Positions 13,088 to 52,277 of a stretch of DNA of 64,000 bases are shown in pieces. Under the pieces are notes generated by a model. The model had not been told where the DNA came from, did no database searches, and was given only the letters and a program-made list of their open reading frames with translations. Every line of letters begins with the position of its first letter. Within the stretch, counting starts at the first letter, position 1. The translations under genes were made by a program, and so were the position numbers. The stretch lies in assembly GCF_014323725.1 (NCBI RefSeq), contig NZ_JABVED010000004.1:248001-312000 (forward strand), given 5' to 3'. This DNA is from Actinokineospora xionganensis (GTDB taxonomy: Bacteria > Actinomycetota > Actinomycetes > Mycobacteriales > Pseudonocardiaceae).

Positions 13088-21049
<7,962 letters not shown>

Positions 21050-22435: not shown

Positions 22436-24124
22436 TCAGGGACGTGTCCAGCCATCGACGAACCGCCCGCGGGTGAGCGAGCGCTGCACCTTCCCACTGG
22501 TGGTCTTCGGGATGCTGCGGCGCGGCACCATGTGGATCGCGATCGGCGGCACGCCGGTGCGCGCGCTGACCGCGGAGCGAATCGACGCCCGCAGGGTGTC
22601 GTGGTGTTCGGCCTCAAGCTCGGTCTCGACCACCAGGTGCAGTTCCTCGGAGTCGCCGTCCTCGGCCAGGTACCCGACGGCGACGACACCGCCGAGCCGG
22701 ACACCGTGCACCGTCTCGGCGGCCTGCTCGAAGTCCGACGGGAAGTAGTTCGCGCCGCGGATGATGACGAGGTCCTTGGCGCGGCCGGTGATCCGCAGAC
22801 TGCCGTCGCGCAGGTAGCCGACGTCGCCGGTCTTCCACCAGCCCGGGCCGTCGAGGGCCTCGGCGGTCGCCCGCGGAAGGTCGAAATAGCCCACGGTGCG
22901 CGACGGCCCGCGGAACTGGATGTGGCCGATCCGGCCCTCCCCCAGTTCGGTGCCCTGGTCGTCGACGATCCGGAGGTCCGTGCCCACCACCGGGGCGCCG
23001 CAGTCGACGACCCGCAAGGCGTGGGGGCTGTCCGCCTCGACGTCGACCACGCGAGCGTCGGCCACGGCGGCTTGGCGGTCGATCGTGTCGTACCTCATCG
23101 GCTCGGCGGGTGGCGTCATGGTGATGCCCAGGACCGCCTCCGCCATCCCGTAACAAGGCACGACGACGTTCGGCCTCAGGCCCCACTTGGTGAAGCGATC
23201 CGTGAAGCGCGCGATCGTGGCGGGGTTGATCGGCTCCGCGCCGCAGAACACCATCCGCCACGACGACAGGTCGACGCCCTTGAGGTGCTCGTCCTTCACC
23301 CGGTCGGCCAGGTAGCCGTAGGCGAAGTTCGGCGCCGCGGCGGTCGTGCCGCGGAAGTGGCTCATCAGGTGCAGCCACTCCGCGGGCGCGCGCAGAAACC
23401 GCGTCGGTGGCATGACCACGCCGCCGCCGCCGGTGTAGATCGGCAACATCAGGCCGGCGACCAGGCCCATGTCGTGGTAGAGCGGCAGCCAGCTCACGCT
23501 CACGTCCTCAGCCGACCAGCCGGTGGCCAGCGCGAGCTGCTCCAGGTGGGTGATCAGGTTGCCGTGCGAGACCATGACGCCCTTGGGCGCGCCGGTCGAC
23601 CCGGAGGTGAGTTGGATGAACGCCAAGTCGCCCGGGCCGGGCAGGTGCACGGGGTGGGGCGCCACCTGCGCCGCGGCGGCCCGCGCGACCAAGGCGTCGC
23701 CGTCGATCAGGACGGTGTCCGCGAGCTCGCCCGCCGCCTCGATCATGGCCGCTGTCGTGACGATCGCGGCAGGCCGCAGGTAGCCGACCAGCTCCTTGAG
23801 TTGGCCGTCGAAGCCCGCGGTGGCGCCGAACGTGGTCGGCAGCGCCACGGAGGCCGGGGCGGCGCCGCACACCTGGGCGCCGAAGAAGGCCGCCGCGAAC
23901 GGCCACCCCGCGGGCAGACAGATCAGGATCCGGTCACCTGGTCCGACACCGTGCTCGGCGAGGATCGCCGCGCTGCGGGCCGCGAGGTCGAACACGGCGT
24001 CATAGCGCCGTGGCTCGACCCGTGCGGGCTCCGGCACCATGGTCAGCTCAGTCGTCGACCCGCTCTCGGCCAGAGCGACCAGTGCGTGGACGATGCTCTG
24101 GTGACGCGGGTGTAGTGCGGTCAT
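22436..24124 (-). CDS. Fatty-acyl-AMP ligase (FAAL-type), end of the amine/amide operon
   Basis: A 562-residue member of the ANL superfamily that adenylates a carboxylic acid and hands it to a carrier protein. Motifs: QLTSGSTGAPKGVMVSHGN for the P-loop (near residue 180), SWLPLYHDMGL which is characteristic of FAALs, YGMAEAVLGI, and the final TSGKVQRSLTR with the catalytic Lys. ATG 24124 overlaps the stop of the aminotransferase-reductase gene (ATGA), so both are coupled. With the ACP at 26847 and the reductase-aminotransferase it forms a logical set: activation of a fatty or polyketide acid, loading on ACP, reduction and amination, as in the tambjamine fatty-amine pathway (TamH). Chain length cannot be deduced. 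Confidence 0.9.
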   Translation of the reverse strand: MTALHPRHQSIVHALVALAESGSTTELTMVPEPARVEPRRYDAVFDLAARSAAILAEHGVGPGDRILICLPAGWPFAAAFFGAQVCGAAPASVALPTTFGATAGFDGQLKELVGYLRPAAIVTTAAMIEAAGELADTVLIDGDALVARAAAAQVAPHPVHLPGPGDLAFIQLTSGSTGAPKGVMVSHGNLITHLEQLALATGWSAEDVSVSWLPLYHDMGLVAGLMLPIYTGGGGVVMPPTRFLRAPAEWLHLMSHFRGTTAAAPNFAYGYLADRVKDEHLKGVDLSSWRMVFCGAEPINPATIARFTDRFTKWGLRPNVVVPCYGMAEAVLGITMTPPAEPMRYDTIDRQAAVADARVVDVEADSPHALRVVDCGAPVVGTDLRIVDDQGTELGEGRIGHIQFRGPSRTVGYFDLPRATAEALDGPGWWKTGDVGYLRDGSLRITGRAKDLVIIRGANYFPSDFEQAAETVHGVRLGGVVAVGYLAEDGDSEELHLVVETELEAEHHDTLRASIRSAVSARTGVPPIAIHMVPRRSIPKTTSGKVQRSLTRGRFVDGWTRP

Positions 24125-26850
24125 CGAATGCGCTCCTCGATTGTGTCGCTGGACCCGTTGACGAACCACGGCCGCACAGTCACGTCATCGGCGACAACGC
24201 GGGCCGGATGCAGCCCGTGCCGCGCGGCCAGATCCCGGGCGGCTTGCACGCCCGCTACGGAAAGGCCTCCGTACGAGGGACTCGGAGTCCGCGGCTCGAA
24301 GCCGAGCAGAATCGTTTCGGCCATGCACGAGTAGACGATCCCGGGCGGGAGGGTGATGCCCGGGAACCGCGGCGCCTGCCCGTCGGGAAGTTGGATCCGG
24401 CCACCGGACACCAGCGTCACGTTCGACAGGTTCGCCACCGCGGGGTGCACGTCACCCGGCACCGCGAGGTCGCAGACGAGGACGTCCCGGTCACCCGCGA
24501 GGTGGTTCGGCAGGATCACCGGGTCGGCCGAGTTGGTCGCGCTGACGACGGTCGGGCAGTCCCGCAGGGCGGCCATGTCCTCGGCGATGGAGACCTCGGT
24601 CAGGTGCGCCAGCCGCTCGGCGACGCGGGCCAGCCGACGGCCGGACCCCGGCCTGCCGACCAGCACCAGCGCCTCGCAGTGCGGGGCGATGAGTTCGGCC
24701 ATGACGGCGCCGATGTTGCCGAGGCCGCCGACGAGCCCGACCCTGCGCTCCCCTGGACCCGCCTGGGCCAGGTGCCCGCGCACCAGGTCGTAGGCGCAGG
24801 CCGCGGTCAGCGAGTTGCCCGAGGTGACCCTGACCTCGTTCTCCACCACGTCGCGCCCGGCGCCGGTGACGATCGAGGTGTAGCCGCCGAGACCGATGGC
24901 GTCGGCACCGAGCCAGAACCCGAGGTCGACGGCGTCGAGCACGGTGCGGCGCAGCCAGGCCCCGTGGCCGGCGCGCTGTCCCTCAACCGCCTGGGCCGCG
25001 GTGAACGGCACGGCCACCAGGTTGACCTCGACCGCCCGGCCGGTATCGGAGAGGATCCGCCGCTGGACGACCTCGAACGGGCCCAACTCGCCGCAGATCC
25101 GGTCGACAGCCGCCTCGCACTGGTCCTCGGACCAACTCGCCAACTCCGGCGCCAGGGCGCGCAGCGAGGTCGCGGTGTCGAGGTTCGCGAGGAACACGAC
25201 CCGGGGCACGTCCTCGTTGCGGCCGTCGCCGGGCCGCCGGTTCCCGCGCGGGTCCGGAACGTGCTGGCGCGGCCGCCAGGCGCCGGTGGCCGGCACGGTG
25301 AGGTGGCCGAGCAGCGTCGCGTAGTCACCCTTGGCCAACAGGCCCGCCGCGTCGTCGAACGCGGCGACGACCCGGTCGATGTCGGCGGACTCCAGCAGCG
25401 CGGAGGGCTGCACGCGCAGCGTTTTCGTCGCGGACAAGGTGGGGATGACGCGGACGCGGTGTTCGTGCAGCATCCTGCCCGCGATCAGGAAGCCGAGCGT
25501 CTCCGCGTCGAACACCTGCTTCAGCAGCGCGGAGTCCGGCTTGGGCAGCCTGAACTCGACACCGAGGAGCAGCCCGCGCCCGCGCACCTCGGCGATGGCC
25601 TCTGGCCAACGCTTCGCGACCTCGGTGAGCCGCTCCCGCAGCTCGGCGCCGACCTCGGCGATCCGGTCCCGGTACTGGACGGAGAGGTCAAGACCCGCCA
25701 GGGCCACCCTGGCCGACAGGTCGTCGTCGGCGAAGGTCGAGGTGTGGTGGCGCCCGAACTCCGCGATGTAGTGGTCCTCGGCGACGAGCAGCGCCGAGAT
25801 CTTGGCCAGGCCGCCGCCGAGGGACTTCGAGAGCAGGTAGTAGTCGGCGACCACGCCGGACGGCTCGGAGGCGAGAAACGTCCCGGTGCGGCCCATTCCG
25901 CACTGGATCTCGTCGAACACCAGGACCGCGCCGTGCCGGTCGGCGAGTTCGCGCAGCGCGGCGAGCGTCGCGGTCGGCACCTCCCGCACGCCTGCCTCGC
26001 CCTGGATCGGCTCGACGAAGCACGCCGCGACCGGCGAGACGTGGCGGGCGGCCGAATGCGGCACGCCCGCGGCGTCGACGGTGACCGTGTCCAGGCGCAC
26101 CCGCACGGGGTCGAGCGCGGAGACGACGGAGCGTGGGGCCCAGTCGTGCAGCCGGATCCGCTTGGGACCGTGGACGTGCAGGTCCTTCGGCACGTTGGCG
26201 CCGTGGGTCAGCGCACCGGCCGCGGAGGTCTTGCCGTGGAACGAGTCCCTGAGCGAGACGAAGATCGGCTCGGCCTTGCCCATCGCCTCCACACACGCGA
26301 TGGCCTCGGCCACCACGTCACCGCATGGCCGCCCCCGCGCGGGGCCGTCCGCGCACGGCAGGTCGTCCACACCGTCGCGCCGCAGCCCCCGCAGCGTCTG
26401 CTCGAGTTCCTCCCGCAGCGCGCCGAGCCCGCGGCTGTGCTCGACCGACGCGTGCTTCACCGCGCCCTCGACGGCGTCGGCGCCGGTGCTGCCGAACGTG
26501 ACGACGTAGCTCGCCCCGGTGGACGCGCCGACCATCGCCGAGAGCCGCTCGGCCAACTCCCCCGCCCACGGGCGGACGCTTCCCTGCGCGTTGAACGGCA
26601 ACCGCTCGTCGAGGCCGCGCCGGGCGACCTCGACAAGTGCGGGGTGGTTGTGGCCGAACAGCGAGGCCCCCGCGCCGCCGACCAGGTCCAGCACCCGCTC
26701 GCCCGTCGCCGGGTCGTCGGCGCAGGCGGGGTGCTCCAGGGTCAGGTAGTCACCCTGGCCCGCCCGGTAGGTGACATCCAGGTTGAGCGCCCGGAAGAGC
26801 CTGGCGAGTTCGGGCCGGGTGTGCCGGGCGAAGCCGTTGGGAGCGCTCAT
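24121..26850 (-). CDS. Fused class III aminotransferase / acyl-ACP reductase
   Basis: A 909-residue fusion. Residues about 1-470 are a class III PLP aminotransferase (VTFGSTGADAVEGAVKHA, FDEIQCGMGRTG, and the PLP Lys in LLSKSLGGGLAKI near 340). Residues about 520-909 resemble the long-chain acyl-ACP reductase of cyanobacteria (AAR): IGLGGYTSIVT, RVTSGNSLTAACAYDLV and a Rossmann loop GLVGGLGNIGAV near 707. Together they would reduce an acyl thioester to the aldehyde with NAD(P)H and then transaminate it to a primary amine. The same chemistry is done by the reductase-aminotransferase PigE in prodigiosin and TamH in tambjamine biosynthesis, but with a different reductase type or domain order. 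The start ATG overlaps the upstream ACP gene by four bases. Confidence 0.85.
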   Translation of the reverse strand: MSAPNGFARHTRPELARLFRALNLDVTYRAGQGDYLTLEHPACADDPATGERVLDLVGGAGASLFGHNHPALVEVARRGLDERLPFNAQGSVRPWAGELAERLSAMVGASTGASYVVTFGSTGADAVEGAVKHASVEHSRGLGALREELEQTLRGLRRDGVDDLPCADGPARGRPCGDVVAEAIACVEAMGKAEPIFVSLRDSFHGKTSAAGALTHGANVPKDLHVHGPKRIRLHDWAPRSVVSALDPVRVRLDTVTVDAAGVPHSAARHVSPVAACFVEPIQGEAGVREVPTATLAALRELADRHGAVLVFDEIQCGMGRTGTFLASEPSGVVADYYLLSKSLGGGLAKISALLVAEDHYIAEFGRHHTSTFADDDLSARVALAGLDLSVQYRDRIAEVGAELRERLTEVAKRWPEAIAEVRGRGLLLGVEFRLPKPDSALLKQVFDAETLGFLIAGRMLHEHRVRVIPTLSATKTLRVQPSALLESADIDRVVAAFDDAAGLLAKGDYATLLGHLTVPATGAWRPRQHVPDPRGNRRPGDGRNEDVPRVVFLANLDTATSLRALAPELASWSEDQCEAAVDRICGELGPFEVVQRRILSDTGRAVEVNLVAVPFTAAQAVEGQRAGHGAWLRRTVLDAVDLGFWLGADAIGLGGYTSIVTGAGRDVVENEVRVTSGNSLTAACAYDLVRGHLAQAGPGERRVGLVGGLGNIGAVMAELIAPHCEALVLVGRPGSGRRLARVAERLAHLTEVSIAEDMAALRDCPTVVSATNSADPVILPNHLAGDRDVLVCDLAVPGDVHPAVANLSNVTLVSGGRIQLPDGQAPRFPGITLPPGIVYSCMAETILLGFEPRTPSPSYGGLSVAGVQAARDLAARHGLHPARVVADDVTVRPWFVNGSSDTIEERIR

Positions 26851-27107
26851 TTCTCCGGGTGTCCTTGTCCGACCGAAACAGTCAGCGCCGCGGTGACGGT
26901 GGCCACCACGTCCCGCAGGGTCACCATCGATCCCGCCTGCTCGTCGCTGATACTCACGTCGAACCTGTCCTCCATCTCCACGATGAGGTCCACGGAGCGG
27001 ACGGAGTCGAGTCCGTAGTCCACAAGCCGGCGGTCCGGGTCGAGTTCGGGCAGTTGCAGCCGCTGACGGAACAGCTTGTCAACGACATCGAAAATGTCGC
27101 GATCCAT
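26847..27107 (-). CDS. Acyl carrier protein feeding the reductase-aminotransferase
   Basis: An 86-residue acyl carrier protein with the phosphopantetheine Ser in DYGLDSVRSVDLI near residue 36 and the usual acidic helix VEMEDRFDVSI. Start ATG 27107 has AGAGGAAG upstream; the longer frame further upstream lacks ACP character. It overlaps the reductase-aminotransferase gene by four bases, which points to that enzyme as its client, and the acyl-AMP ligase two genes downstream as its loader. The PPTase gene lies directly upstream. Confidence 0.93.
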   Translation of the reverse strand: MDRDIFDVVDKLFRQRLQLPELDPDRRLVDYGLDSVRSVDLIVEMEDRFDVSISDEQAGSMVTLRDVVATVTAALTVSVGQGHPEK

Positions 27108-27181
27108 GGATTGCTTCCTCTCACCCGACTCCACGCACACTGCTTGGCCTCTATGGGCGCGGCCGAACACGACGGACCGCG

Positions 27182-27766
27182 TCACCGCCGTATCGCCACG
27201 GCGAGCGATAGACGCGGCTCAGACCGGACCCACACCGGCACGGACACACCTCGGTAGGACGCGACGAGCGTCGCGTCTGTCTGGTCCAACTCGATCCACC
27301 AGAACAAGAACTGATCCGGCCCACCAAGGCCGCCCCCGCCACCCAGCGAGCAGAGAGCCTTGAAGGCCGCCTCCTTCGCCGCGAACAGGTCCCGCGCGCT
27401 GTACGCCCCGGCGGGCCTCAGCAGCGCGGCGCGCTCCCGGTCGCGCAGGACGAACCTGGCCACGCGGGGACTGATCACGGCGTCCTCGATGTCGACGCCC
27501 ACCGCCTCGGCACCCGGGACGACCACCGCCACGGCCACCCTGTCGGTGTGCGCGATGGCCCCGGCGAACCCTGGGGGAAACCTCGGCCTCCCATCGGGTT
27601 CACGCGGCACAACCAAGTCGGTGGACCCGGACTCGGCCAAGGCCGCCGCGACCGCGGCTCGCCCGGCCGCGGACTGCTCGTCGCGGCCGCGCGGCGGCCG
27701 CACCGGGCGCCACTGGAAGTGCGCACCCGGTGCGACCCCTTCCGGAACCGTCAGTTGGAGCGACAC
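27182..27766 (-). CDS. 4'-phosphopantetheinyl transferase (Sfp/EntD type)
   Basis: A 194-residue PPTase that converts apo carrier proteins to their holo form using CoA. The signature residues are visible: GVDIED with the magnesium-binding Asp and Glu in the middle, and FAAKEAAFKAL with the conserved Glu/Lys helix; the upstream PREPDGRPRFP and FAGAIAHT parts correspond to the P1a/P1 motifs. It is somewhat shorter than EntD or Sfp (about 210-230). The start is GTG 27766, with AGGGGACGGCG upstream. It is flanked by two ACP genes and is probably dedicated to the carrier proteins of this region, perhaps also to the NRPSs. Confidence 0.93.
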   Translation of the reverse strand: MSLQLTVPEGVAPGAHFQWRPVRPPRGRDEQSAAGRAAVAAALAESGSTDLVVPREPDGRPRFPPGFAGAIAHTDRVAVAVVVPGAEAVGVDIEDAVISPRVARFVLRDRERAALLRPAGAYSARDLFAAKEAAFKALCSLGGGGGLGGPDQFLFWWIELDQTDATLVASYRGVSVPVWVRSEPRLSLAVAIRR

Positions 27767-27775
27767 CGCCGTCCC

Positions 27776-28048
27776 CTATGCGGGCAGGGACGCGACGTGC
27801 CCGGCCAGCGAGCTGATCGAGCGCAGCGCCTCGGGCGCGACGTCGTCCTGCCACTCGAAGCCGAACTCGTCCTCCATGGCCACCAGCAGGCTCACCAGCG
27901 CGGCCGACGAGACTCCGCCCTCGCGCAGCGACACGGTGTCCGCCAGTTCGGTCACGAAACTGTCGGGGCCGAACATGTCCAGCAGGAGCGCACGGATACG
28001 CGCCCTGGCCTCGACCACCGAATCGGACTCGGCGACTGGATCAGGCAC
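27776..28048 (-). CDS. Acyl carrier protein with atypical serine motif
   Basis: A 90-residue carrier-protein-like gene. Helical pattern and acidic helix (LVAMEDEFGFEW) are those of an ACP, but the attachment motif reads REGGVSSAALVSL, where the usual DSL is replaced by VSS; Ser is still available for the phosphopantetheine arm. The GTG start at 28048 overlaps the stop of the alpha/beta hydrolase gene. It precedes the PPTase gene by nine bases. Which enzyme loads it cannot be decided; candidates are either acyl-AMP ligase or the ketosynthase line. Confidence 0.8.
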   Translation of the reverse strand: MPDPVAESDSVVEARARIRALLLDMFGPDSFVTELADTVSLREGGVSSAALVSLLVAMEDEFGFEWQDDVAPEALRSISSLAGHVASLPA

Positions 28049-28910
28049 CGGCTTCGGCTTCCGCGACGAACTTGCGGACGATCGCCTGGAAGCCCATCGC
28101 GTCGTCGAGGAAGGGCAGGTGGCCCGCGCCGGGCATGATCTCGTAGCCGCCCTTGGGAAAGTGCTCGGCCAGTTCCCGGGCACCGGTGTTGCTCAGCAGG
28201 ATGTCGTCGTCGCCGATGACGACCAGCGCCGGGCACTGGATCTGCTTGAGCAGCTCGGGGCTGGTCTCGCCGGTCAGCGCCAGGTTGAGGCCGTTGGCGA
28301 GGTCCTCCTTGGTGGACAGCGCGAGGAAGCTCTCCCGCAGGCCCAGGAAGCCGGGGGTGCCGAGTTCCTCGTTCATGTCCGCGCCGAACACCTCGGGGTA
28401 GAGGTGGTTGTACAGGGCGGCCATGCCGTGGTTCTCCAGGGTGAGCAGCCACGCGCGCTGGATCTGGCGGTGCCTGCGCATGCCCTTGGGACCCAGAGCG
28501 GGCCCGGCGAGCACGATCCCCGCCACCCGGTCGGGGTAGGTCAGCGCGATGTCACGGGCGAGGACGGTGGAGATCGAGGTGGAGACCAGGTAGGTCTTCT
28601 CGACCTGCAGGGCGTCGAGCAGGGCGATGGCGTCGGCGGCGTGCTGCGCCCAGGACGGGTAGGTCTCCGGGTGGGTCGACTGCCCGTGACCCGCGAGGTC
28701 GTAGCTGATGACGCGGTGGTCGTTGGCGAGGTCGTCGGTGAGGACACGCCACGTCGGGGTGGTCATGAAGAAGTTGTTGAGGGTGGTGACAACCGGGCCG
28801 TCACCGGTCGACTCGTAGTAGAGCTCGACGCCGTCGCGGACGCGGACCTTGAGGGTGTCCTCGCGGTACTTCAGGTCGAGCCGTTCGAGCACGTCGGAAG
28901 CTGACATCAT
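28041..28910 (-). CDS. Alpha/beta hydrolase with degenerate motifs
   Basis: A 289-residue alpha/beta hydrolase-fold protein. The oxyanion-hole HG motif is replaced by TLNNFFMTT, and the nucleophile elbow reads LVSTSISTV instead of GxSxG, although a central Ser remains. The acid is in VVIGDDDILL and the His in PGAGHLPFL. Such changes occur in C-C hydrolases, esterases and in non-hydrolytic members that catalyse cyclisation or act as lyases. ATG 28910 overlaps the stop of the flavoprotein gene. It may release a carrier-bound intermediate or perform an unusual elimination; the substrate is unknown. Confidence 0.82.
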   Translation of the reverse strand: MMSASDVLERLDLKYREDTLKVRVRDGVELYYESTGDGPVVTTLNNFFMTTPTWRVLTDDLANDHRVISYDLAGHGQSTHPETYPSWAQHAADAIALLDALQVEKTYLVSTSISTVLARDIALTYPDRVAGIVLAGPALGPKGMRRHRQIQRAWLLTLENHGMAALYNHLYPEVFGADMNEELGTPGFLGLRESFLALSTKEDLANGLNLALTGETSPELLKQIQCPALVVIGDDDILLSNTGARELAEHFPKGGYEIMPGAGHLPFLDDAMGFQAIVRKFVAEAEAGA

Positions 28911-29893
28911 CGTTCCTTTTCTGTTTCGGCGACTTCATGGCCCCGCAGGACACGGTCGAACGCGGCGACGATCTCGGCCGCCGAGGGTTCACGGGTGATC
29001 GCGGCGCAGGACAGGCCGCAGTACATGGCCATCTCCTCGACGCGCCCGGTGGTCGAGTCGGTCGGCACCGCGGCGCTGAACCGCGGCACCAGGAACGACT
29101 GGCCTCCCACGGTCGTGCGGCCGATGAAGTTCTTGGCCTGCAACGGGTTCGCCGTGACGGCGGTGGACAGCACCCGGTGCCGCCGGTTCGGCCAGCCGAT
29201 CTCGTAGACACCGGTGATCACGGTGTCGGCTCCCGAGGCGCCGATCACCGCCTGCTTGAAGTACGGATGCGCCGCCGACTCGCGCGAGACGACGAACGCC
29301 GTGCCGAGCAGCACTCCGTCGGCGCCCGCGGCCAGCGCGACGGCGGCGTCGCCGGGCGACCCGATCCCGCCGGAGGCGACGACGCACGCGTCGGGCAGCC
29401 GGTCGCGCAGCCGCGCCACCAGTTCATCGCGCGGGTCGTGGCCGAGCAGGTGTCCGCCCGCCTCGACGCCCTGGGCGATCACGACGGCGCCGCGCTCGGC
29501 GGCCCGCACGCCGTCATCGACCGTGCCGACCTGGACCACGAGGCGCCTGCCCGAGGCGGCCACGCGGTCGAACACGGCGTCCTCGGGCATGCCGAACAGC
29601 GAGACGTACACCGAGTCCGGAGTCTCACCGAGCAGCTGCTCCAGTTGCTCGGTGAGCTCGTGGGCGCCGACGACCTCGGGGATGAAGTTCACCCCGACCG
29701 GCTTGTCGGTGGCCGCGGTCAGCCGCTTCAGCATGGTGGAAAGGTGCTCGCCGACCAGCTTGTAGCCGCCGACGCAGCCCGCCGCACCCGCGTTCGACAC
29801 CGCGGCCGCGAGCTCCGGGCCGGAGACCCCGCCCATTCCCGCCAGCAGCACTCCCACCTCGACGCCGAGCGCCTCGGCCGCGGTGGTACGCAT
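28907..29893 (-). CDS. Nitronate monooxygenase-like / FabK-like FMN flavoprotein
   Basis: A 328-residue TIM-barrel FMN protein of the 2-nitropropane dioxygenase family. Features: an N-terminal GVEVGVLLAGMGGVSG loop, the FMN-phosphate region (VVASGGIGSPGDAAVALAAGADGVLLGTAF) and AAERGAVVIAQGVEAGGHLLG, where the GGH motif with His is typical of family members that act as nitronate monooxygenases or enoyl-ACP reductases. ATG 29893 overlaps the stop of the ligase gene (TGATG). Beside an AurF-like N-oxygenase, a nitronate or hydroxylamine substrate is attractive, whereas beside carrier proteins enoyl reduction is equally possible. Confidence 0.85.
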   Translation of the reverse strand: MRTTAAEALGVEVGVLLAGMGGVSGPELAAAVSNAGAAGCVGGYKLVGEHLSTMLKRLTAATDKPVGVNFIPEVVGAHELTEQLEQLLGETPDSVYVSLFGMPEDAVFDRVAASGRRLVVQVGTVDDGVRAAERGAVVIAQGVEAGGHLLGHDPRDELVARLRDRLPDACVVASGGIGSPGDAAVALAAGADGVLLGTAFVVSRESAAHPYFKQAVIGASGADTVITGVYEIGWPNRRHRVLSTAVTANPLQAKNFIGRTTVGGQSFLVPRFSAAVPTDSTTGRVEEMAMYCGLSCAAITREPSAAEIVAAFDRVLRGHEVAETEKER

Positions 29894-30720
29894 CAGCCCA
29901 GCGCCTCGACAGCGTCCAGCGCGGCGACGGCGCTGCCGAACCGGTCGGTCAGGGTGTGGATCCACCGCTCCAGGCCGAAGGCGAGACAGCTGGTGTGCGC
30001 CGTCTCCTCGCCAGCCCGGATCGAGCAGCGCTCGCCGAAGAAGTTCCGGTGGTAGTTGACCGAGCCGATCGCCAGGCCGTTGACCACGAACTCTTCCTTG
30101 ACGGGGAACAGCTTCTGCATCTTCGCCTTGCCGCTGTTCTTGTCGAAGAACGGGTCGTTGGCGACCTCGATGCCGTACTCGATGCCCAGCTCGACGAGCA
30201 GCGCGATCACGGCGTCCTTGGCCCGCGCCAGGTGCGCCTTGGCCGCGTCCTCCGGCCCGACGCACACGATCTCGCGCATCGTGAAGCCCAGCAGCCGCTG
30301 CAGACCGTTGTAGTGGTCCTCGTTGCGGAAGCAGGTTCCGACGGTCGTGCGCATGACGCCCTCGGCGGGCAGCACCGTGCCCGCGAGGTCGACGTAGATC
30401 GAGTAGCAGGCCGCGGACGGCAGCGCGAACGCGGTCGGCTCCATCACCTCCGGGACGACGCGCTCCACCGGCCGCTCCGCGCCGGCCAGCGAGGCGCTGA
30501 GCCGCGCCGGGTCCAGCCGCACCGCGGCCAGGCCCAGGTGCGGGAAGTTGTCGTAGTAGTCGAACTTGTCCAGGTCCGAGCACCTGATCAGGTGCGGGTA
30601 CCGGAACTCCGGGGCGTTCCATCCGGCCGCGAGCCGCAGGAACACCGCCTCGATCGCGCGCAACAGCCGCAGCTGGTCTCCGTCGAGCACTCGCAAGCCG
30701 TTGTCGGTCGCCGTGGTCAT
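29893..30720 (-). CDS. Amino acid:carrier-protein ligase (SerRS-like, aaCP ligase)
   Basis: A 275-residue class II aminoacyl-tRNA-synthetase-like protein without the tRNA-binding arm of SerRS. It shows motif 2 (VGTCFRNEDHYN) and motif 3 (HTSCLAFGLERW), and the zinc ligands of this family appear to be a Cys in SAACYSIY, a Glu in REIVC and a Cys in HTSCLAF. Described relatives activate glycine or alanine and load them onto a small carrier protein, not onto tRNA (Mocibob and co-workers, Bradyrhizobium and Agrobacterium). Here a carrier protein gene lies immediately upstream with a four-base overlap, exactly as in the described pairs. Gly or Ala specificity is not resolvable by eye. Confidence 0.85.
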   Translation of the reverse strand: MTTATDNGLRVLDGDQLRLLRAIEAVFLRLAAGWNAPEFRYPHLIRCSDLDKFDYYDNFPHLGLAAVRLDPARLSASLAGAERPVERVVPEVMEPTAFALPSAACYSIYVDLAGTVLPAEGVMRTTVGTCFRNEDHYNGLQRLLGFTMREIVCVGPEDAAKAHLARAKDAVIALLVELGIEYGIEVANDPFFDKNSGKAKMQKLFPVKEEFVVNGLAIGSVNYHRNFFGERCSIRAGEETAHTSCLAFGLERWIHTLTDRFGSAVAALDAVEALG

Positions 30721-30962
30721 CGCACCGCCTCCCGCGTGAAGAACCGGGCCTCGATCGCCGTCAAGGTCCGAAAGTCGTCCAGGTCGAGGTCCTCGGGGTC
30801 GATCGACTCGCCGGTGAGTTCCTCCAGCAGGAAGATGAACTCGACGAAGGCCAGCGAATTGATGGCCCGGCTGTCGATCAGGTCGAGGTCGTCGGACAGG
30901 GTGTCCATTGTGGAATTGCGCTGCAGGATGAAGTCCCGGACCGCCCGCATCTGGTCGTTCAT
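30717..30962 (-). CDS. Carrier protein partner of the aaCP ligase
   Basis: An 81-residue acyl/aminoacyl carrier protein. The attachment Ser lies in SRAINSLAFVEF, where the usual Asp before the Ser is Asn; helix II is acidic (LLEELTGESIDPEDLDL). Its start ATG 30962 overlaps the AurF-like gene and its end overlaps the aaCP ligase gene, so it is expressed as a fixed partner of the ligase. Family knowledge suggests that it carries glycine or alanine as a thioester for a later transfer reaction. The likely acceptor enzyme is the transglutaminase-like protein two genes upstream. Confidence 0.9.
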   Translation of the reverse strand: MNDQMRAVRDFILQRNSTMDTLSDDLDLIDSRAINSLAFVEFIFLLEELTGESIDPEDLDLDDFRTLTAIEARFFTREAVR

Positions 30963-31840
30963 CGCTTGACCAGTTCCCGGCCGACGCCCACTTTGGACAG
31001 GAACTTCCTGGTGCGCTTGAGGATCTGCTCGTGCGCCGCCAGCCGCGCCGGGTGTTCGAGCGCGCGCCTGCGCAGGGCCAGGGCGTCCGGGATGCCCGCG
31101 TCGCGGTATGCCGCCGGGTTGTACAGGGTGCCGATGCTGTAGGTCAGGTAGCTCTCGAGGTACTCCGCGACCAGCGGCACCTCGTCCGGGTCGCGCTTGG
31201 CCACCTGCTCCAGCAGGTTCACGAAGATCATGCGGCCGAAGGCGACGTGCCTGCTCTCGTCCTGGTGGTGCACCCGGTTGATCTCACGGGCGATGACCGG
31301 CAGGCCCATGTCCGTGGCCATGTGCGCGTTGTAGTGGTCGACGATCTCCTCGAAGATCAGGATGCGCGCGAACACGATCAGCTCGCGGGCCACCGCCGAG
31401 AGGTGCTCGACCGAGTCCGCCCGCAGCGACGGCTGCGCCGGGTAGAGTTTGCCGCCGTAGCGCAGGCAGAACTGCGCGAAGAACCACATGTGCTCGTTCT
31501 CCTCACCGATGAAGTGGTGGAGGAACTCCGAGACACCGGCGTAAGTGCGGTCATGGATGCGCATGACCACCTCGCTCAACAGCTCACGGATGCCGTGGAT
31601 GTTGAGGCTGAAGAAGTTGATCGCCTCGTACCTGGTCAAGGCGAGCTGCTGCTCGCGGGTGAGCTCGTCCCACATGGGGGTGCCCGCCAGCGTGGTGAGG
31701 CTCTCACTCATCCATGGCTTGTCCGGCTCGATGGCCTCGGGCCAGTCGAACATCGTGTACGGGTTGTAGTAGCCCGACTCGGCCATCAGCTCCAGCCGGT
31801 CCAGCGCCAGGTCGATCGGCTCGATCTCACGTACTGCCAT
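30959..31840 (-). CDS. AurF-like diiron N-oxygenase
   Basis: A 293-residue ferritin-like diiron protein. The ligands expected for the AurF/CmlI family are present in the right order: Glu in RYEAINFF (72), ExxH in EENEHMWFF (E114, H117), Glu in FEEIVDHY (164/165) and HxxxExxH in VHHQDESRHVAF (H191, E195, H198). AurF and CmlI oxidise arylamines to nitro compounds, and relatives hydroxylate amines or carbon. With a fatty-amine-forming fusion in the same operon, an alkylamine or aminoacyl-carrier substrate is plausible; that is inference. Its ATG is preceded by GGAAAGAG. The stop overlaps the carrier protein gene. Confidence 0.87.
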   Translation of the reverse strand: MAVREIEPIDLALDRLELMAESGYYNPYTMFDWPEAIEPDKPWMSESLTTLAGTPMWDELTREQQLALTRYEAINFFSLNIHGIRELLSEVVMRIHDRTYAGVSEFLHHFIGEENEHMWFFAQFCLRYGGKLYPAQPSLRADSVEHLSAVARELIVFARILIFEEIVDHYNAHMATDMGLPVIAREINRVHHQDESRHVAFGRMIFVNLLEQVAKRDPDEVPLVAEYLESYLTYSIGTLYNPAAYRDAGIPDALALRRRALEHPARLAAHEQILKRTRKFLSKVGVGRELVKR

Positions 31841-31878
31841 CTCTACTCTTTCCTACGGAGTGGCTCGACATTCCAGCG

Positions 31879-32853
31879 TCACCGCGTCGATCGGATATCC
31901 GCACGCACATGGACCGGCTCCGGTGAACCGCAGTCGTGGTAGCCGAAGGAGGCGTTACCGGAGGCGGTGGACGGGATCACCTTGTTGTAGACCGATCCCT
32001 GGCACAGTTCCTGGAAGTCGCCGGTGTCGGGCGACAGCCGGGCGGCCAGCTGGGCCTTGGCGATGTCGACGGTCTTCACCGAGCCGTCGTCATCGGTGAC
32101 CTCGACGCACGCGTGCGGCAGGTCGAGGGCCCCGCCCAGCACGCCGCAGAACCAGCCGCGCTTGGCCTCGGCCGCATAACCCGCGTCCCGGAACCGTTGC
32201 GCCAGCAGCAGACTCGCGGCGATGCAGCTGGTCGCGCCCAGCCCGTGCACCAGGTCGGGGTCGGCCTGCATGGCGATGGGGATCATCTGCCAGCGGTAGC
32301 CCGAGTCCAGGTAGTCCCGCACCAGGCGCCGCAGTCGCGGCGCGACCAGCGGCGTGCGCGCGCCGGTGGTGGTGACGGTGGCCGAGTACTCGCCGGACGA
32401 CGCCGCGCTGGGCCCGATGACCTCGTGCACCTCGACGCGCCCGCCGAAGCGTTCGACGTCGGGCGCCTCCAGCCGCCACGGCGCCTCGCCGCGACAGTCC
32501 ACACAGTCCATCCGGACCCGGAAGTCCCAAGTCTTGTCGCGCAGCAGGTCGTCCATCGACCTGGTGGCGAACCGGAACAGCATGCGGAAGGCGAGTTCGG
32601 GCTGCGTGTTCCCCTTGCCGGAGTACATGCCGAGGTTGTAGAGGTCGTTGACGTCGAAGTGCCGCACCCCGTCGCGGTCCTCGAACGGCAGGCCCGCGTC
32701 GACCAACCGGTCGAGTTCGGCCTGATCGCAGCGCAGCATCTCCCGCGCCACGGTGTCGGACTGGGTTTTGTGGGAGTACTCCGCGGGAACGAACTCGATG
32801 GAATCCGCCACCTGTTCCCAGTGCGTGCTCGCGGATGCGGCTTGCAACGACAC
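31879..32853 (-). CDS. Transglutaminase-like protein (AdmF-like amide synthase candidate)
   Basis: A 324-residue protein whose C-terminal half has a transglutaminase-type triad: Cys210 in GATSCIAASLLLAQRF, His247 in LDLPHACVEV and Asp263 in KTVDIAKA, with the usual spacing of about 37 and 16 residues. The N-terminal half has two CxxC cysteines (MDCVDCRG, C117/C120), possibly structural zinc ligands. The known biosynthetic precedent is AdmF of andrimid, a transglutaminase homologue that joins an acyl-ACP to an aminoacyl-PCP. The operon supplies both kinds of carrier proteins. GTG 32853 with AGGGAGAGGG is the start. I assign the fold with fair confidence; the peptide-bond-forming role is inferred from neighbours. 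Confidence 0.68.
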   Translation of the reverse strand: MSLQAASASTHWEQVADSIEFVPAEYSHKTQSDTVAREMLRCDQAELDRLVDAGLPFEDRDGVRHFDVNDLYNLGMYSGKGNTQPELAFRMLFRFATRSMDDLLRDKTWDFRVRMDCVDCRGEAPWRLEAPDVERFGGRVEVHEVIGPSAASSGEYSATVTTTGARTPLVAPRLRRLVRDYLDSGYRWQMIPIAMQADPDLVHGLGATSCIAASLLLAQRFRDAGYAAEAKRGWFCGVLGGALDLPHACVEVTDDDGSVKTVDIAKAQLAARLSPDTGDFQELCQGSVYNKVIPSTASGNASFGYHDCGSPEPVHVRADIRSTR

Positions 32854-33157
32854 AGTCCCTCTCCCTGGGCAGAACGAAAGCCGACGATCACTGATTCGGA
32901 CACCGGCGGCAAATGGTCCAGTTGATTACGAGAGCATTCCGTCATCCCCTATGAGACGGACCAACCGAACGATATCGACCGTACCAGCCGGACACGAAGC
33001 GGCAACAGATCAGTTCCACATGGACGCCCATGTGTTCCACATATACGAATTGGAGAAACGATTCCTCACCAGCGCGGCCGGAATGCATCCGACCAGAGAG
33101 CGGGTCGCGGCGATCTTCGCCGACCGGACCTCATCCACGCGACGGGTGCGGGTTGAT
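32854..33157. other. Gene-free stretch between two minus-strand genes
   Basis: About 300 bases with slightly lower GC than the neighbouring genes. It must carry the promoter for the transglutaminase-like gene and its operon. Short frames on both strands lack codon bias. I recognise no clear promoter or dyad. Confidence 0.4.
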
Positions 33158-33484
33158 TCAGTCCTCGTCGACGTGGCGCCCGCGGCCATCGACCACATGT
33201 GGCACGCGATGCGACCCGATGCGCTCCCGGGCGGCCCACTTGGTCGCCTCCACCGTGCTGCGGGCCAGTCCGATGGCGTCATGCAGGAGCTCGGTGTGCG
33301 AGTGGTCGCCGTTCACGCTGTCCTGCTGCGTCCGCAGCAGGGCGGCCGCGCAGTTCAGGGCGTCGCACGCGGCGCTGACCTCGGGAACGCGCCAACCGCG
33401 CGAGCCCCGCAGTTCCACGGCGAGCTTTTCGAGCAGTTCGACGGCCGACGCGAAGTCCGCGGCCGCCTCATGGGCAGTGCTCAT
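33158..33484 (-). CDS. Small hypothetical helical protein
   Basis: A 108-residue, mostly alpha-helical, cysteine-containing soluble protein (EAAADFASAVELLEKLAVEL, DALNCAAALLRTQQ, LLHDAIGLARSTVEATKWAA) ending in a charged, His/Arg/Asp-rich tail. Start ATG 33484 is preceded by an AGG-type site. I recognise no family. It lies after the terminator-like hairpin of the carbamoyltransferase gene, so it may be its own transcript. Codon use at third positions is GC-rich and consistent with a real gene. Confidence 0.55.
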   Translation of the reverse strand: MSTAHEAAADFASAVELLEKLAVELRGSRGWRVPEVSAACDALNCAAALLRTQQDSVNGDHSHTELLHDAIGLARSTVEATKWAARERIGSHRVPHVVDGRGRHVDED

Positions 33485-33514
33485 GGGCCGGACCTCATCA
33501 CCTTCCCGACCTGG

Positions 33515-33543
33515 GCTGGGACGCCGCGGCGCGGCGTCCCAGC
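33515..33543 (-). terminator. Strong hairpin behind the carbamoyltransferase gene
   Basis: Perfect 14-base arms GCTGGGACGCCGCG and CGCGGCGTCCCAGC (33515-33528, 33530-33543) lie 15 bases after the carbamoyltransferase stop. No T-run follows on the minus strand, so termination may be incomplete or the hairpin may stabilise the mRNA. Confidence 0.6.
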
Positions 33544-33558
33544 GATCCGGTCACGTGG

Positions 33559-35358
33559 TCACGCGGACTTCTCGATCTTGGTGACGAGGTGGTTGCCGAG
33601 CAGCAGGTAGTCGATCTCGGTGCCGAGGAAGCAGTTCACCGCGTCGGCCGGGGCGCAGACGATCGGCTCGCCCGCGACGTTGAACGACGTGTTGATCAGG
33701 CAGGGCACGCCCGTCAGCGAGGTGAACTCGCGCAGCAGGGCGGCCAGCCGCGGAGTCTCCTCGTCGGTGAGGGTCTGCACCCGCGAAGTGCCGTCGACGT
33801 GCACCGCGCCCTGGATCTTCTCGCGGTACTCCTCCTTCACCGGGAAGACAAAGGTCATGTAGGGCGAGGACTTCTTCTTGCCCAGCTCGAAGACCTTCGC
33901 CGCGTCCGACTCGAGCACCAGCGGCGCGAACGGCCGGAACGGCTCCCGGTGCTTGACGCGCAGGTTGATGACGTCCTTGATGTCCGAGAAGCTCGGGTTC
34001 GCCAGGATGCTGCGGTGACCGAGGGCGCGGGGACCGTGCTCCATGCGGCCCTCGAAGTAGCCGACGATGACCTTCTCGGTCAGCAGCTTGGCCACCTGGT
34101 CGACGACCTCGTCGTCGGTCAGCCTGGTCCACTCGACCTTGCCCGCGAACTCCCGCAGGGCCGTCTCGATGGCGTCTTCGTCGTACTCGGGGCCGAGGTA
34201 CGGGGTGACCGACTCGGGAGCCTTGACCTCACCCTCGGCCGCGGGGTCGTTGACCCAGGCGTAGACGGCGGCGCCGATGGCGATGCCGGTGTCGCTGGCG
34301 CCGAAGCTGACCGACATGTCCTCGAAGCGCGACTCTTCGAGCATCGGGGTGTTGTTCAGGCAGTTGAGCGCCACACCGCCCTCGAACAGCAGGTGGGGCA
34401 GGTCGGTCTTCGACTCGAGCGCGCGCAGCTGGTGGTTGGTGACGGCCAGCAGCATCTCCTGCGCCGCGGCGGACACCGTCGACTGGTATTCCAGGGTGTC
34501 CTGGAACGGGCCGAAGTGCTGCTCGAACAGCGGCTCGAAGCTGCGCGGGTTCTCCAGGTCGTGCTGCTGGCAGAGGGTGTAGCGGCCGCCATCCTCCAGC
34601 TTGACGACGTGCTCGAGGAACGGGTTGGGCGACGGCGCCTCGCCGTAGCCCGCCATGCCCATGACCTTGTACTCGTCGTTGTTCGGCACGAAGCCCAGGA
34701 AACGGGTGATCGCGGAGAACAGCATGCCGATCGAGTCGTGCGCGGTGACCATCTGGTCGTCGAACAGCTTGATCTTGCCGTCGCGGATCTCGCCGACCAC
34801 CGACGAGAACAGCTCGGCGCGGCCGTCGCTGATGAGGAACGCCGCGTCCTTCATGCCCGCGAAGTACCAGCCGGTGGTCGCGTGGGCGAGGTGGTGGGGG
34901 ACGAAGACGACCTTCTCGCGGTCGGGGGTGAAGCCGGTGCGGGCGGCGAAGTCGGCGAGGATCGCCTCCTGGCCGAGGACGTGCACGAACAACTGGCCGA
35001 TCTTGTTCAGCCTGCCCAGCTTGTCCAGCGGGGCGAGCGGCTGCATCGCCAGGTCGAACAGGGCGGCGTTGAAGACGACGTCGTTGAAGCTCCACGGGAT
35101 GGCGATCAGATCGATGTCCTCGAACTTCACGCCCGCGTGGTCGAGCACCCACTTCACCGAGTTGATCGGGAAGTCGGAGGTCTTCTTCTCCCGGTTGAGG
35201 CGCTCTTCCTCCACCGCGGCGACGAGTTCACCGTTGACCAGCAGCGACGCGCCGGCGTCGTGGCCGAGACCGTAGTGTTTCTCCTTGCCGACCGCGTCAT
35301 AGTGCTCGGCGAAGATCTCAGCGCTGCGGGAGAAACCGTTGCACCCCAAGACAATCAT
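33559..35358 (-). CDS. O-carbamoyltransferase (NodU/CmcH/TobZ family)
   Basis: A 599-residue carbamoyltransferase. The N-terminal actin-like (YrdC-independent) domain opens with MIVLGCNGFSRSAEIFAEHY, followed by HDAGASLLVNGELVAAVEEERLNR and the metal/phosphate-binding VFVPHHLAHATTGWYFAG. Further on come GVALNCLNNTPML and the C-terminal GPRALGHRSILANPS, typical of NodU/CmcH. The family uses carbamoyl phosphate and ATP to make a carbamoyl-adenylate and transfers the carbamoyl group to a hydroxyl. Start ATG 35358 has AAGGAA upstream. In a cluster making an amine or amide it implies a product with a hydroxyl group, probably introduced on an amino-acid or polyketide part. Confidence 0.93.
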   Translation of the reverse strand: MIVLGCNGFSRSAEIFAEHYDAVGKEKHYGLGHDAGASLLVNGELVAAVEEERLNREKKTSDFPINSVKWVLDHAGVKFEDIDLIAIPWSFNDVVFNAALFDLAMQPLAPLDKLGRLNKIGQLFVHVLGQEAILADFAARTGFTPDREKVVFVPHHLAHATTGWYFAGMKDAAFLISDGRAELFSSVVGEIRDGKIKLFDDQMVTAHDSIGMLFSAITRFLGFVPNNDEYKVMGMAGYGEAPSPNPFLEHVVKLEDGGRYTLCQQHDLENPRSFEPLFEQHFGPFQDTLEYQSTVSAAAQEMLLAVTNHQLRALESKTDLPHLLFEGGVALNCLNNTPMLEESRFEDMSVSFGASDTGIAIGAAVYAWVNDPAAEGEVKAPESVTPYLGPEYDEDAIETALREFAGKVEWTRLTDDEVVDQVAKLLTEKVIVGYFEGRMEHGPRALGHRSILANPSFSDIKDVINLRVKHREPFRPFAPLVLESDAAKVFELGKKKSSPYMTFVFPVKEEYREKIQGAVHVDGTSRVQTLTDEETPRLAALLREFTSLTGVPCLINTSFNVAGEPIVCAPADAVNCFLGTEIDYLLLGNHLVTKIEKSA

Positions 35359-35670
35359 GACCAATGTTCCTTCTCTGTCGCACTGGGTCGCGGGCACACT
35401 GACGGCACGGAACGCGCCGTGCGGCAAGGAGCGACGAATTCATCACGAAGATAGACTTCAGCGCACGTCAAATGGAGCGGACATACTCGATTCTAATTCC
35501 CAGCCAGGCTACCAGCACAAAACTCGCACCAGCAATGTGAGAACCACACCATTGCGGATGCAGTCCTCACGCGCGGACCGAGTTCGCAACCTTACACCGA
35601 GGGCAAAACATATATTTGCGGATAAGCGAAACGAGATCCCTTTCTGAACCACTCCGCACAAGGGGCCACC
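35359..35670. promoter_or_regulatory. Divergent promoter region, carbamoyltransferase / hydrolase
   Basis: Some 310 bases of noticeably lower GC content separate the divergent genes. An AT-rich element (ACATATATTTG, about 35609-35619) lies about 55 bases upstream of the plus-strand hydrolase. No strong dyad is evident. It probably holds promoters for both directions. Confidence 0.5.
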
Positions 35671-36639
35671 ATGCCTTTGGACCGCATCCTCCGCAACCTG
35701 ATCACCTGGCAGCGCGCGGACGGTCCGCCGACGCCGATGCGCGAACTGTCCATTGAGGACGCCCGCGCGCGGTACCTGGCGAACGCGGTCCGCCCGCGTC
35801 GCGGCCCCGCGGACACGGTCACCACCGTCGACCGGACGGTCGAGACCACGGACGGTTCGTCGATCCGGGCGAGGGTGTACCACCCGGACACGGCGCCGAG
35901 CATGTCGCTCACCTTCCTGCACGGCGGCGGCTGGGTCGTCGGCGACCTCGACAGCCACGACTGGGCCGTGCGCACCACGGCCTCGGCGCTCGGCGCGGTC
36001 GTGGTCGCCGCGGACTACCGGCGTGCGCCGGAGTTCCCGTACCCGGTCCCGCTGTACGACGCGATCGCCGTCGCGCGATGGACCGCCCAGGAGTTCCCGG
36101 GTCTCCCGCAGGTCCTCGCGGGCGACAGCGCGGGCGCGCACCTGTCGGTCGGCGTGGCGCTCGACGCGCGCGACAACGACGGCCCCCGGTTCGCGGCGAT
36201 GCTGCTGCTGTACCCGCCGACGGACCCGAGCCTGCGGCTGGCCGCGGCGGGCGAGTATCCCGAGGGTTACCTGCTGTCCGTCGACGACATGGCCCACCAC
36301 TACGACCTCTACGTCCCCGACCCGGCCCGGCGCGGCGACCCCGCGGTCGACCTGCTGAGCGCGGACCTGCGCGACCTGCCGCCCGCGGTGGTCGCCACGG
36401 CGGAGTTCGACCCGCTGCGCGACGAGGGGATCGCCTTCGCCGAGCGGTTGGCCGCCGCGGGTGTGCCCGCCAGGCAGGTGCCCGGCCCGGGACTGGTACA
36501 CGGCTACTTCCTGATGCAGGACGTCGTGCCCGCAGCGGCCAAGTGCGCCCAAGGGGTGCTCGACGAACTGACCGCGATGCTGGCCGCGCCGCATGAGGAC
36601 GCAGCCGCCGCGCGGATCGATCCGGTTCCGGGTCGCTGA
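35671..36639 (+). CDS. HSL-family esterase (alpha/beta hydrolase 3)
   Basis: A 322-residue esterase of the hormone-sensitive-lipase family. Motifs: TFLHGGGWVVGDL (HGGGW oxyanion hole), VLAGDSAGAHLSVG (GDSAG nucleophile elbow), an Asp in AEFDPLRDEG and the catalytic His in LVHGYFLMQ. ATG 35671 follows AAGGGG. It is the only plus-strand gene in this block and converges on the second acyl-AMP ligase with a shared terminator. It may cleave an ester or amide in a tailoring or self-resistance role; the substrate is unknown. Confidence 0.92.
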   Translation: MPLDRILRNLITWQRADGPPTPMRELSIEDARARYLANAVRPRRGPADTVTTVDRTVETTDGSSIRARVYHPDTAPSMSLTFLHGGGWVVGDLDSHDWAVRTTASALGAVVVAADYRRAPEFPYPVPLYDAIAVARWTAQEFPGLPQVLAGDSAGAHLSVGVALDARDNDGPRFAAMLLLYPPTDPSLRLAAAGEYPEGYLLSVDDMAHHYDLYVPDPARRGDPAVDLLSADLRDLPPAVVATAEFDPLRDEGIAFAERLAAAGVPARQVPGPGLVHGYFLMQDVVPAAAKCAQGVLDELTAMLAAPHEDAAAARIDPVPGR

Positions 36640-44647: not shown

Positions 44648-44921
44648 ACGCACAACCCCATTCCCCGTAAATGGATTTCGCCCGACAACAAATCGCACAT
44701 TTATTGCCATCGTCATGTTATCCAGCGCCAACTCGGCGGGACAATATTCGTTCCACCCAGGTCCGCGTGGGTTTCTCACATCCACCCGACCCAACCGGGT
44801 CTACCTGGATACACCCGCGCGTGGCGCCCTCGATTCGACTATTTCGAACTGCGTCGCGAAGCGCACATCGTTTACCGGCGAAGAAACACGAGCACACTTA
44901 TCCGCACGGGTGAAATTCCGG

Positions 44922-52144: not shown

Positions 52145-52277
52145 CGGTCTCCCACTCGATTTCGACACTCCGACGATCTTGAACTTATCGACCCCGGTCC
52201 CGGCGCGATACCACAATGCGTCGTGTTCCACCAGGGTTCTCGTACGCGCGTGGACGTACGCGCCTACGCCACCGGAC

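Follow-up and report, generated by a model that had tools for sequence, protein, structure and literature searches.

The 64,000-nucleotide (nt) stretch of Actinokineospora xionganensis DNA analysed here (NZ_JABVED010000004.1, positions 248,001-312,000; below, the window, whose own coordinates are used throughout) carries eleven head-to-tail genes between 32853 and 22436 on the minus strand, adjacent genes being spaced by -8 to +74 nt. They encode three small carrier proteins together with predicted enzymes of amino acid activation, nitrogen oxidation and fatty-amine formation, and begin with a transglutaminase-like protein (TG) around which a core set of genes recurs in other genomes. In operon order, with supporting matches and their E values in brackets, these genes are:

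31879-32853, minus: TG, transglutaminase-like putative acyltransferase (Cys-His-Asp triad, fold model)
30959-31840, minus: AurF-like diiron N-oxygenase (PF11583, 1.4e-34)
30717-30962, minus: CP2, putative carrier for an activated amino acid (PP-binding, 0.0029, under the Pfam cut-off)
29893-30720, minus: amino acid:carrier protein ligase, resembling class II aminoacyl-tRNA synthetases (aaRS) (PF00587, 1.1e-07; 3mey, 1.3e-22)
28907-29893, minus: NMO, nitronate monooxygenase/FabK-like flavoenzyme (PF03060, 4.1e-34)
28041-28910, minus: alpha/beta hydrolase, possible acyltransferase or thioesterase (Abhydrolase_1, 1.8e-21)
27776-28048, minus: CP3, third carrier protein (gene family c7; PRK07081, 2.1e-8, under its cut-off)
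27182-27766, minus: 4'-phosphopantetheinyl transferase, PPTase (4PPT_N and ACPS)
26847-27107, minus: ACP1, putative fatty-branch acyl carrier protein (PP-binding, 4.7e-11)
24121-26850, minus: fusion of an N-terminal aminotransferase with a C-terminal acyl-ACP/thioester reductase (Aminotran_3, 7.8e-55)
22436-24124, minus: FAAL1, fatty acyl-AMP ligase (AMP-binding, 1.5e-59)

A first-pass annotation of this region had treated these genes as one set, and family searches bore out the members it named, including the ligase with its carrier CP2 (PF00587, 3mey) and a fatty acyl-AMP ligase with an acyl carrier protein (AMP-binding and PP-binding matches); the third carrier, CP3, had been overlooked. 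For FAAL1, fatty acyl-AMP ligase models rank among the top matches, every one of them under its curated cut-off. A longer frame at 28907-30622 was rejected in favour of the NMO gene at 28907-29893, its 5' part being spurious by content and frame composition, and the minus-strand frames 35509-36594 and 33010-33282 were discarded on the same grounds.

A recurrent core around TG

Among 397 genomes of the order, ten, including that of the window, have a TG match, and the seven same-genus genomes listed in that search have none; a phylum-wide draw of 396 gave three matches, of which one is in the genome of the window and the other two, each with one internal stop, reach about 4e-4 (20-21 bits). A scan of genome contigs for TG, limited by one peptide pattern, yielded 57 loci, of which 25 form a close group (TG 65-78% identical) and 32 are distant. 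All 25 close loci hold the AurF-like gene, CP2, the ligase and the NMO alongside TG. The hydrolase is present in 24 and the PPTase in 23, the exceptions being contig ends (L049 for the hydrolase, L032 and L049 for the PPTase), and CP3 is present in 23, with L049 ending too early for it. Genome mining, as proposed by the first-pass annotation for the whole gene set, thus recovers the core in 25 of 25 close loci and the fatty-amine enzymes in only 12.

Eleven of the 32 distant loci hold AurF, CP2 and the ligase; two hold CP2 and the ligase without AurF, five hold CP2 alone of these three with an AMP-binding ligase gene near by, one holds only the ligase, and none of the three is present in the other 13, of which eleven are Actinomadura. 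TG stands with CP2 and without AurF in L054, L056, L058, L063-L065 and L067, in five of which an AMP-binding ligase replaces the aaRS-like one. In L059, a distant AurF locus, the gene after the ligase is a PPTase. The eleven Actinomadura relatives of TG (within L072-L084) have no matching carrier or ligase in the stretch examined, and the neighbour of TG is a flavin-monooxygenase-like gene in L079 and a kinase/LuxR-like gene in L084. On plasmid NZ_CP015269.1 of Mycobacterium intracellulare subsp. chimaera (L091), a distant TG (28% identical) adjoins an alpha/beta hydrolase in a neighbourhood annotated with carrier proteins, an adenylation protein and a chlorinating enzyme.

The intact Cys-His-Asp set that the first-pass annotation saw in TG is C210, H247 and D263, invariant in all 50 rows of an alignment (A3) of the window with 49 of the 57 TG loci (L032, L037, L046, L047, L049, L076, L081 and L083 were omitted). 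Transglut_core matches 14 of the 50 rows and Transglut_core3 nine; the window's own TG protein has no Pfam match and no sequence match to solved structures. Its AlphaFold2 model has a mean predicted local distance difference test score (pLDDT) of 91, and Foldseek returned three matches at E <= 0.001, all chains of the putative cysteine protease 3isr (E 1e-6), followed by weaker fold matches (E 0.05-0.5) to arylamine N-acyltransferases and the amide synthase GdmF. From alignment and model, TG is a predicted member of the transglutaminase-like superfamily with its triad in the core fold. The one annotated close-group record examined names the gene 'hypothetical protein'.

The AurF-like protein is modelled with a pLDDT of 90, and its top fold matches are AurF and CmlI (E 9e-5, template modelling (TM) score 0.57-0.68). 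PMC12154687 lists six metal ligands and an extra histidine for AurF/CmlI-type N-oxygenases. Judged by motif, with no superposition, the six ligands would correspond to E72, E114, H117, E165, E195 and H198 and the extra histidine to H191; across 37 sequences, each of these seven residues is kept in at least 97%. The gene adjoining CP2 can thus be assigned, by motif and model, as an AurF/CmlI-type diiron N-oxygenase. In the hydrolase, S112, D234, D236 and H264 are conserved.

The ligase matches the Bradyrhizobium amino acid:carrier protein ligase 3mey at 1.3e-22, and at 1.8e-38 with a seven-row profile. Homology in the catalytic core and the adjacent stand-alone carrier CP2 identify 29893-30720 as a predicted amino acid:carrier protein ligase. 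It is homologous to both 3mey and 4h2w of the Bradyrhizobium/Agrobacterium systems, which likewise work with a stand-alone carrier. In the part of PMC2922099 (Iyer et al.) that was available, the ligase neighbours named there are a Rossmann redox enzyme, a glycosidase and liposaccharide genes, with no AurF or NMO among them, unlike the cassette; a linked uncharacterised open reading frame was predicted there as the amide ligase. We considered that paper as a description of the present gene set and set it aside, the accessible text covering the ligase-carrier idea only. Within open-licence literature, searched by titles and abstract beginnings, no paper was recognised as describing this gene combination. 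In Nonomuraea soli (L039:12101-13787) the cassette holds two tandem aminoacyl-carrier ligases (80% and 64% identical), which might load CP2 and CP3 separately.

A proposed route from carrier-bound glycine to an amine

He and Ryan are said, in papers that cite their 2021 work, to have described carrier-bound glycine being oxidised to a nitronate that is then either methylated or denitrified, and the denitrification branch reportedly uses an NMO. The first-pass annotation had identified the AurF-like and nitronate-type enzymes correctly and had given them a loose redox role; by analogy, the pair appears to fit this glycine-nitronate-denitrification sequence rather than loose redox tailoring. A methyltransferase gene lies near the ligase in four of the eleven distant AurF loci (L052, L055, L068 and L071; a partial count, with neighbours scanned in seven of the eleven), and NMO matches (at 1e-5) are found in all close loci and in none of the 32 distant ones, which fits the published split between methylation and denitrification. 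With the glycine-nitronate pathways (enteromycin carboxamide, cryptic denitrification) the cassette would share carrier-bound glycine, a diiron oxygenase and a nitronate, and reportedly also the NMO. As far as a citing paper describes them, it would differ in its stand-alone aaRS-like ligase, TG, hydrolase, CP3, PPTase and exchangeable amine module.

If this precedent holds, we infer the following order of steps. The ligase would load glycine (or alanine) on CP2, the AurF-like enzyme would oxidise the amino group to the nitronate, and the NMO would remove the nitrogen as nitrite to leave glyoxylyl-CP2, from which TG would take the acyl group on Cys210 and pass it to a free amine. In the window this amine would be a fatty amine, with FAAL1 loading a fatty acid on ACP1 and the fusion enzyme turning the ACP1-bound fatty acyl group into the aldehyde and then the amine. 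A carbamoyltransferase, an esterase and a second fatty acyl-AMP ligase encoded upstream would then decorate or extend the product, predicted to be an N-alkyl glyoxylamide or a reduced or carbamoylated derivative. That a transferable cassette makes an oxidised two-carbon acyl group from carrier-bound glycine and passes it on to an amine, the cassette itself being free of condensation domains, is a proposal to which we give a little less than an even chance.

The NMO can also be read otherwise. Among solved structures it is closest to a FabK enzyme and to a putative nitroalkane dioxygenase, and the FabK model TIGR03151 is its top model match, under its cut-off. Since the two relatives score equally, denitrification is not proved by sequence, and the protein might instead be a reductase of the FabK kind that leaves the nitrogen in place, giving a nitroacetyl, oxime or hydroxamate-type unit. 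Akazaoxime/enteromycin-type metabolites do retain their nitrogen, according to PMC9967187. The presence of the NMO in 25 of 25 close loci and 0 of 32 distant ones nevertheless parallels the published bifurcation, and we consider retention of the nitrogen unlikely. A further possibility is that nitrite itself is the wanted product, for N-N or nitroso chemistry, and the two-carbon acyl group is waste that TG or the hydrolase clears away. Nitrite would indeed be freed if AurF and NMO acted on carrier-bound glycine, and some AMP-binding enzymes, such as CreM and Tri17, are nitrite-using diazotases. No nitrite-using enzyme was seen in the eight-gene cassette, however, and both fatty acyl-AMP ligases, FAAL1 and FAAL2, have FAAL-type models as their top matches (in a comparison that left diazotase models out), so that we regard this explanation as very improbable.

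The amine side of the proposal rests on what accompanies the core from locus to locus. The fusion enzyme is found in the window and in 12 of the 25 close loci; in the stretches of the other 13, neither it nor ACP1 was found, two of them (L032 and L049) ending before its place. A gene for a pyridoxal phosphate (PLP)-dependent amino acid decarboxylase is present in L031 and L034, and also beside the cassette on a plasmid of Streptomyces sp. NBC_01431 (L090); in L031 and L090 an amino acid permease adjoins it. Polyketide synthase (PKS)/nonribosomal peptide synthetase (NRPS) genes occur in L041, L043, L046 and L051 (by shared gene families, with Pfam run on L046 only), and L039 has ketosynthase and acyltransferase genes. 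Because the core is kept in 25 of 25 loci but the fusion enzyme in only 12, with a decarboxylase or PKS/NRPS genes in others, the core behaves as a plug-in cassette, and from these gene contents we read it as one building-block cassette joined to different amines. A tree built on five cassette proteins (24 close loci of the 25, plus the window) places the two decarboxylase loci L031 and L034 within a fatty-amine clade (support 0.976 with L036/L044 and 0.998 with L035). In L040 and L048, LytB/IspH-like and NsdA-like genes follow the cassette, where other loci hold the amine module.

This pattern also bears on the direction of coupling. AdmF-type amide synthases of andrimid biosynthesis have a transglutaminase-like triad and use a carrier-bound donor with no condensation domain; TG has the same type of triad and a putative carrier-bound donor, whereas its proposed acceptor is a free amine (a likeness drawn with no sequence comparison). 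The first-pass annotation had TG join the two carrier-bound partners as AdmF does, which would here mean transfer of the fatty acyl group from ACP1 to the amino group of aminoacyl-CP2, with the fusion enzyme later making a terminal amine. Both carrier systems are present and the TG triad is intact, yet TG, CP2 and the ligase are kept in the 13 close loci in which the fusion enzyme and ACP1 were not found (two of which end too early), two of them with a decarboxylase instead, and this arrangement seems improbable to us. Because the core persists without the fusion enzyme, and because L031, L034 and L090 have a decarboxylase, TG more likely moves a glycine-derived acyl group from CP2 to an amine. 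The gene set is thus real and holds more than was first described. The earlier interpretation was right in spirit, and TG does lie beside a carrier, but the likely coupling is of a glycine-derived acyl group to the amine.

That the fusion of aminotransferase and reductase could make an amine, as had been suggested, agrees with its sequence matches. Besides the Aminotran_3 match, its C-terminal part matches acyl-ACP reductase 6jzq (1e-3) as well as the N-terminal regions of 4ppm (2.8e-16) and of the PigE model (3.5e-31); the record of 4ppm is titled 'Aminotransferase', and we take it to be PigE. The fusion enzyme shares the aminotransferase and thioester/acyl reductase domains of PigE of prodigiosin biosynthesis in swapped order, aminotransferase first and reductase second, and scores far under the PigE cut-off. 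K342 and C793 are conserved in 13 of 13 aligned copies. TamH of the tambjamines has the same domain type. We also considered an azoxy pathway of the valanimycin/azodyrecin type, which shares an alkylamine, an amino acid and a ferritin-like enzyme with the window, and dropped it because such pathways use aminoacyl-tRNA, according to PMC9379638, where the cassette has an aminoacyl carrier protein instead; no operon gene is named VlmA, VlmO or VlmH by Pfam, no search having been aimed at these.

Several points weigh against the proposed delivery of a denitrified glycine unit to an amine. The full-length fold match of TG to 3isr is weak (TM 0.26-0.38), and TG might pass its acyl group to CP3, another thiol or water instead of an amine. 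Glycine as the substrate is suggested by precedent and ligase homology. CP3 and the hydrolase have no place in the scheme, and CP3 was not found in L028, though the stretch there covers its place. On the amine side, the decarboxylase type is represented by few cases (n=3), no amine was recognised for the PKS/NRPS-type loci, and no amine source was found in the stretches of six of the 25 close loci (L029, L032, L037, L040, L048 and L049; the contigs of L032, L037 and L049 are shorter than 14 kb).

Linked genes and what the cassette may make

Beyond the operon, the following genes of the window enter the argument:

33559-35358, minus: O-carbamoyltransferase (PF16861, 6.8e-68; PF02543, 1.7e-33)
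35671-36639, plus: ABH3, HSL-type esterase/hydrolase (PF07859, 1.9e-54)
36691-38439, minus: FAAL2, second fatty acyl-AMP ligase (AMP-binding, 4.9e-67; FAAL models)
39102-39707, minus: LuxR-type regulator (GerE, 8.2e-16)
47785-62361, minus: thiazoline-type NRPS cluster with a thioesterase, two ABC exporters, an Irp3-like reductase and two NRPSs (family searches)

The first-pass annotation counted the O-carbamoyltransferase as part of the operon. The gene itself is borne out by its two families, and it is linked to the cassette elsewhere as well, but 705 nt separate its 3' end from the start of TG, which places it outside the closely spaced run of eleven genes, and beyond it comes a plus-strand gene (35671-36639); between TG and the carbamoyltransferase no promoter-like or terminator-like consensus site was found, in a scan not covering all actinomycete promoter types. 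Carbamoyltransferase matches are absent from the stretches examined at all 57 loci, which had suggested a strain-specific gene. That suggestion was overturned by copies 70-74% identical in 9 of the 21 cassette genomes searched and by the synteny of the trio: in S. scabiei (L085) and S. tagetis (L086), the carbamoyltransferase, esterase and FAAL2 lie just past FAAL1 in the window's relative order and orientation, with FAAL2 adjoining FAAL1, and in S. daqingensis (L087) the esterase and carbamoyltransferase come after FAAL1. The carbamoyltransferase is 11-13 kb from TG in these three genomes, about 32 kb in G784, about 40 kb in G789 and 350 kb in G786; in G780, G781 and G790 the two genes are on separate contigs. 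Because the gene is linked in some genomes, carbamoylation probably accompanies the pathway in some strains, not universally. Copies of the LuxR regulator 64-78% identical occur in 11 of the 25 close loci.

The strongest result against a strictly condensation-free pathway is the linkage of NRPS genes. Family searches found no condensation (C) domain in the eleven-gene operon, so that the claim made in the first-pass annotation holds there, and it is left unsecured for the pathway as a whole, since a thiazoline-type NRPS cluster accompanies the cassette in about half of the cassette-bearing genomes searched. In the window, C domains lie in the NRPSs at 13088-21049 and 53354-62361, and the thiazoline-type cluster, for which 'pyochelin-like' is our descriptive label, is 20 kb from TG. 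C-domain matches occur in the stretches of three of the 12 fatty-amine loci and of four PKS/NRPS loci; the nine fatty-amine stretches free of them had suggested no NRPS involvement, a reading weakened by linked NRPS genes further out. The large NRPS at 13088-21049 reads towards FAAL1 from the opposite strand and has partial matches (38% and 52%) near the cassette in Saccharomonospora sp. NB11 (L042).

If the cassette unit joined or tailored the product of this linked NRPS, condensation and cyclisation domains would take part in the pathway overall. Ten of the 21 cassette genomes have a relative of the window's Irp3-like reductase at E <= 1e-40, at 15 places in total. Nine of the ten have one on the same contig as TG, at distances of about 14, 27, 29, 32, 36, 40, 42, 42 and 47 kb (start to start); this linked copy is the best match in eight of the nine. 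In genomes of this size (4-10 Mb), chance alone would hardly seem to place the two so near each other so often, although some of the genomes are closely related (three belong to the Micromonospora group). G784 has no reductase match and yet carries NRPS relatives adjoining FAAL1, and the asparagine-synthase (AsnS) gene is common to the window, Saccharopolyspora kobensis (82%) and G784 (55%). Eleven of the 21 genomes, on the other hand, carry the cassette without that reductase, and no NRPS relative was found in the flanks read around the S. tagetis cassette. The linked copy in G792 is the second-best match, and in G793 no copy lies on the TG contig (54 kb), the copies there being on other contigs, as are the remaining second copies in G783, G785 and G786. 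Two independent co-located pathways would give the same picture. The linkage may mean a hybrid product, a shared need for transport or regulation, or an inherited island; the linked NRPS may share in the product, and we think a hybrid product rather unlikely.

Between these clusters, 42803-47730 holds the asparagine-synthase-like gene, a double-ATPase ABC protein and a Trep_Strep membrane protein, all three shared with S. kobensis beside its cassette (82%, 68% and 70%) and possibly serving amidation and transport. S. lucensis, a genome without the reductase, has relatives of the two ABC exporters (73-74%) near FAAL1.

More broadly, and more tentatively, we propose that an unnamed family of transglutaminase-like acyltransferases may draw on stand-alone carriers and transfer glycine, N-oxidised or denitrified, to free amines. 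Actinomycetes would combine its eight-gene cassette with backbones of the fatty-amine, decarboxylated-amino-acid and PKS/NRPS kinds, in the window with O-carbamoylation and an adjacent thiazoline metallophore-type cluster, to give a new class of C2-capped amines. If this is true, a condensation-free enzyme couples carrier-bound oxidised glycine to amines of choice, which would give a purpose to glycine denitrification chemistry. The 25 close loci would then mark a recognisable set of undiscovered metabolites, and the cassette itself would offer a compact, portable acylation tool.

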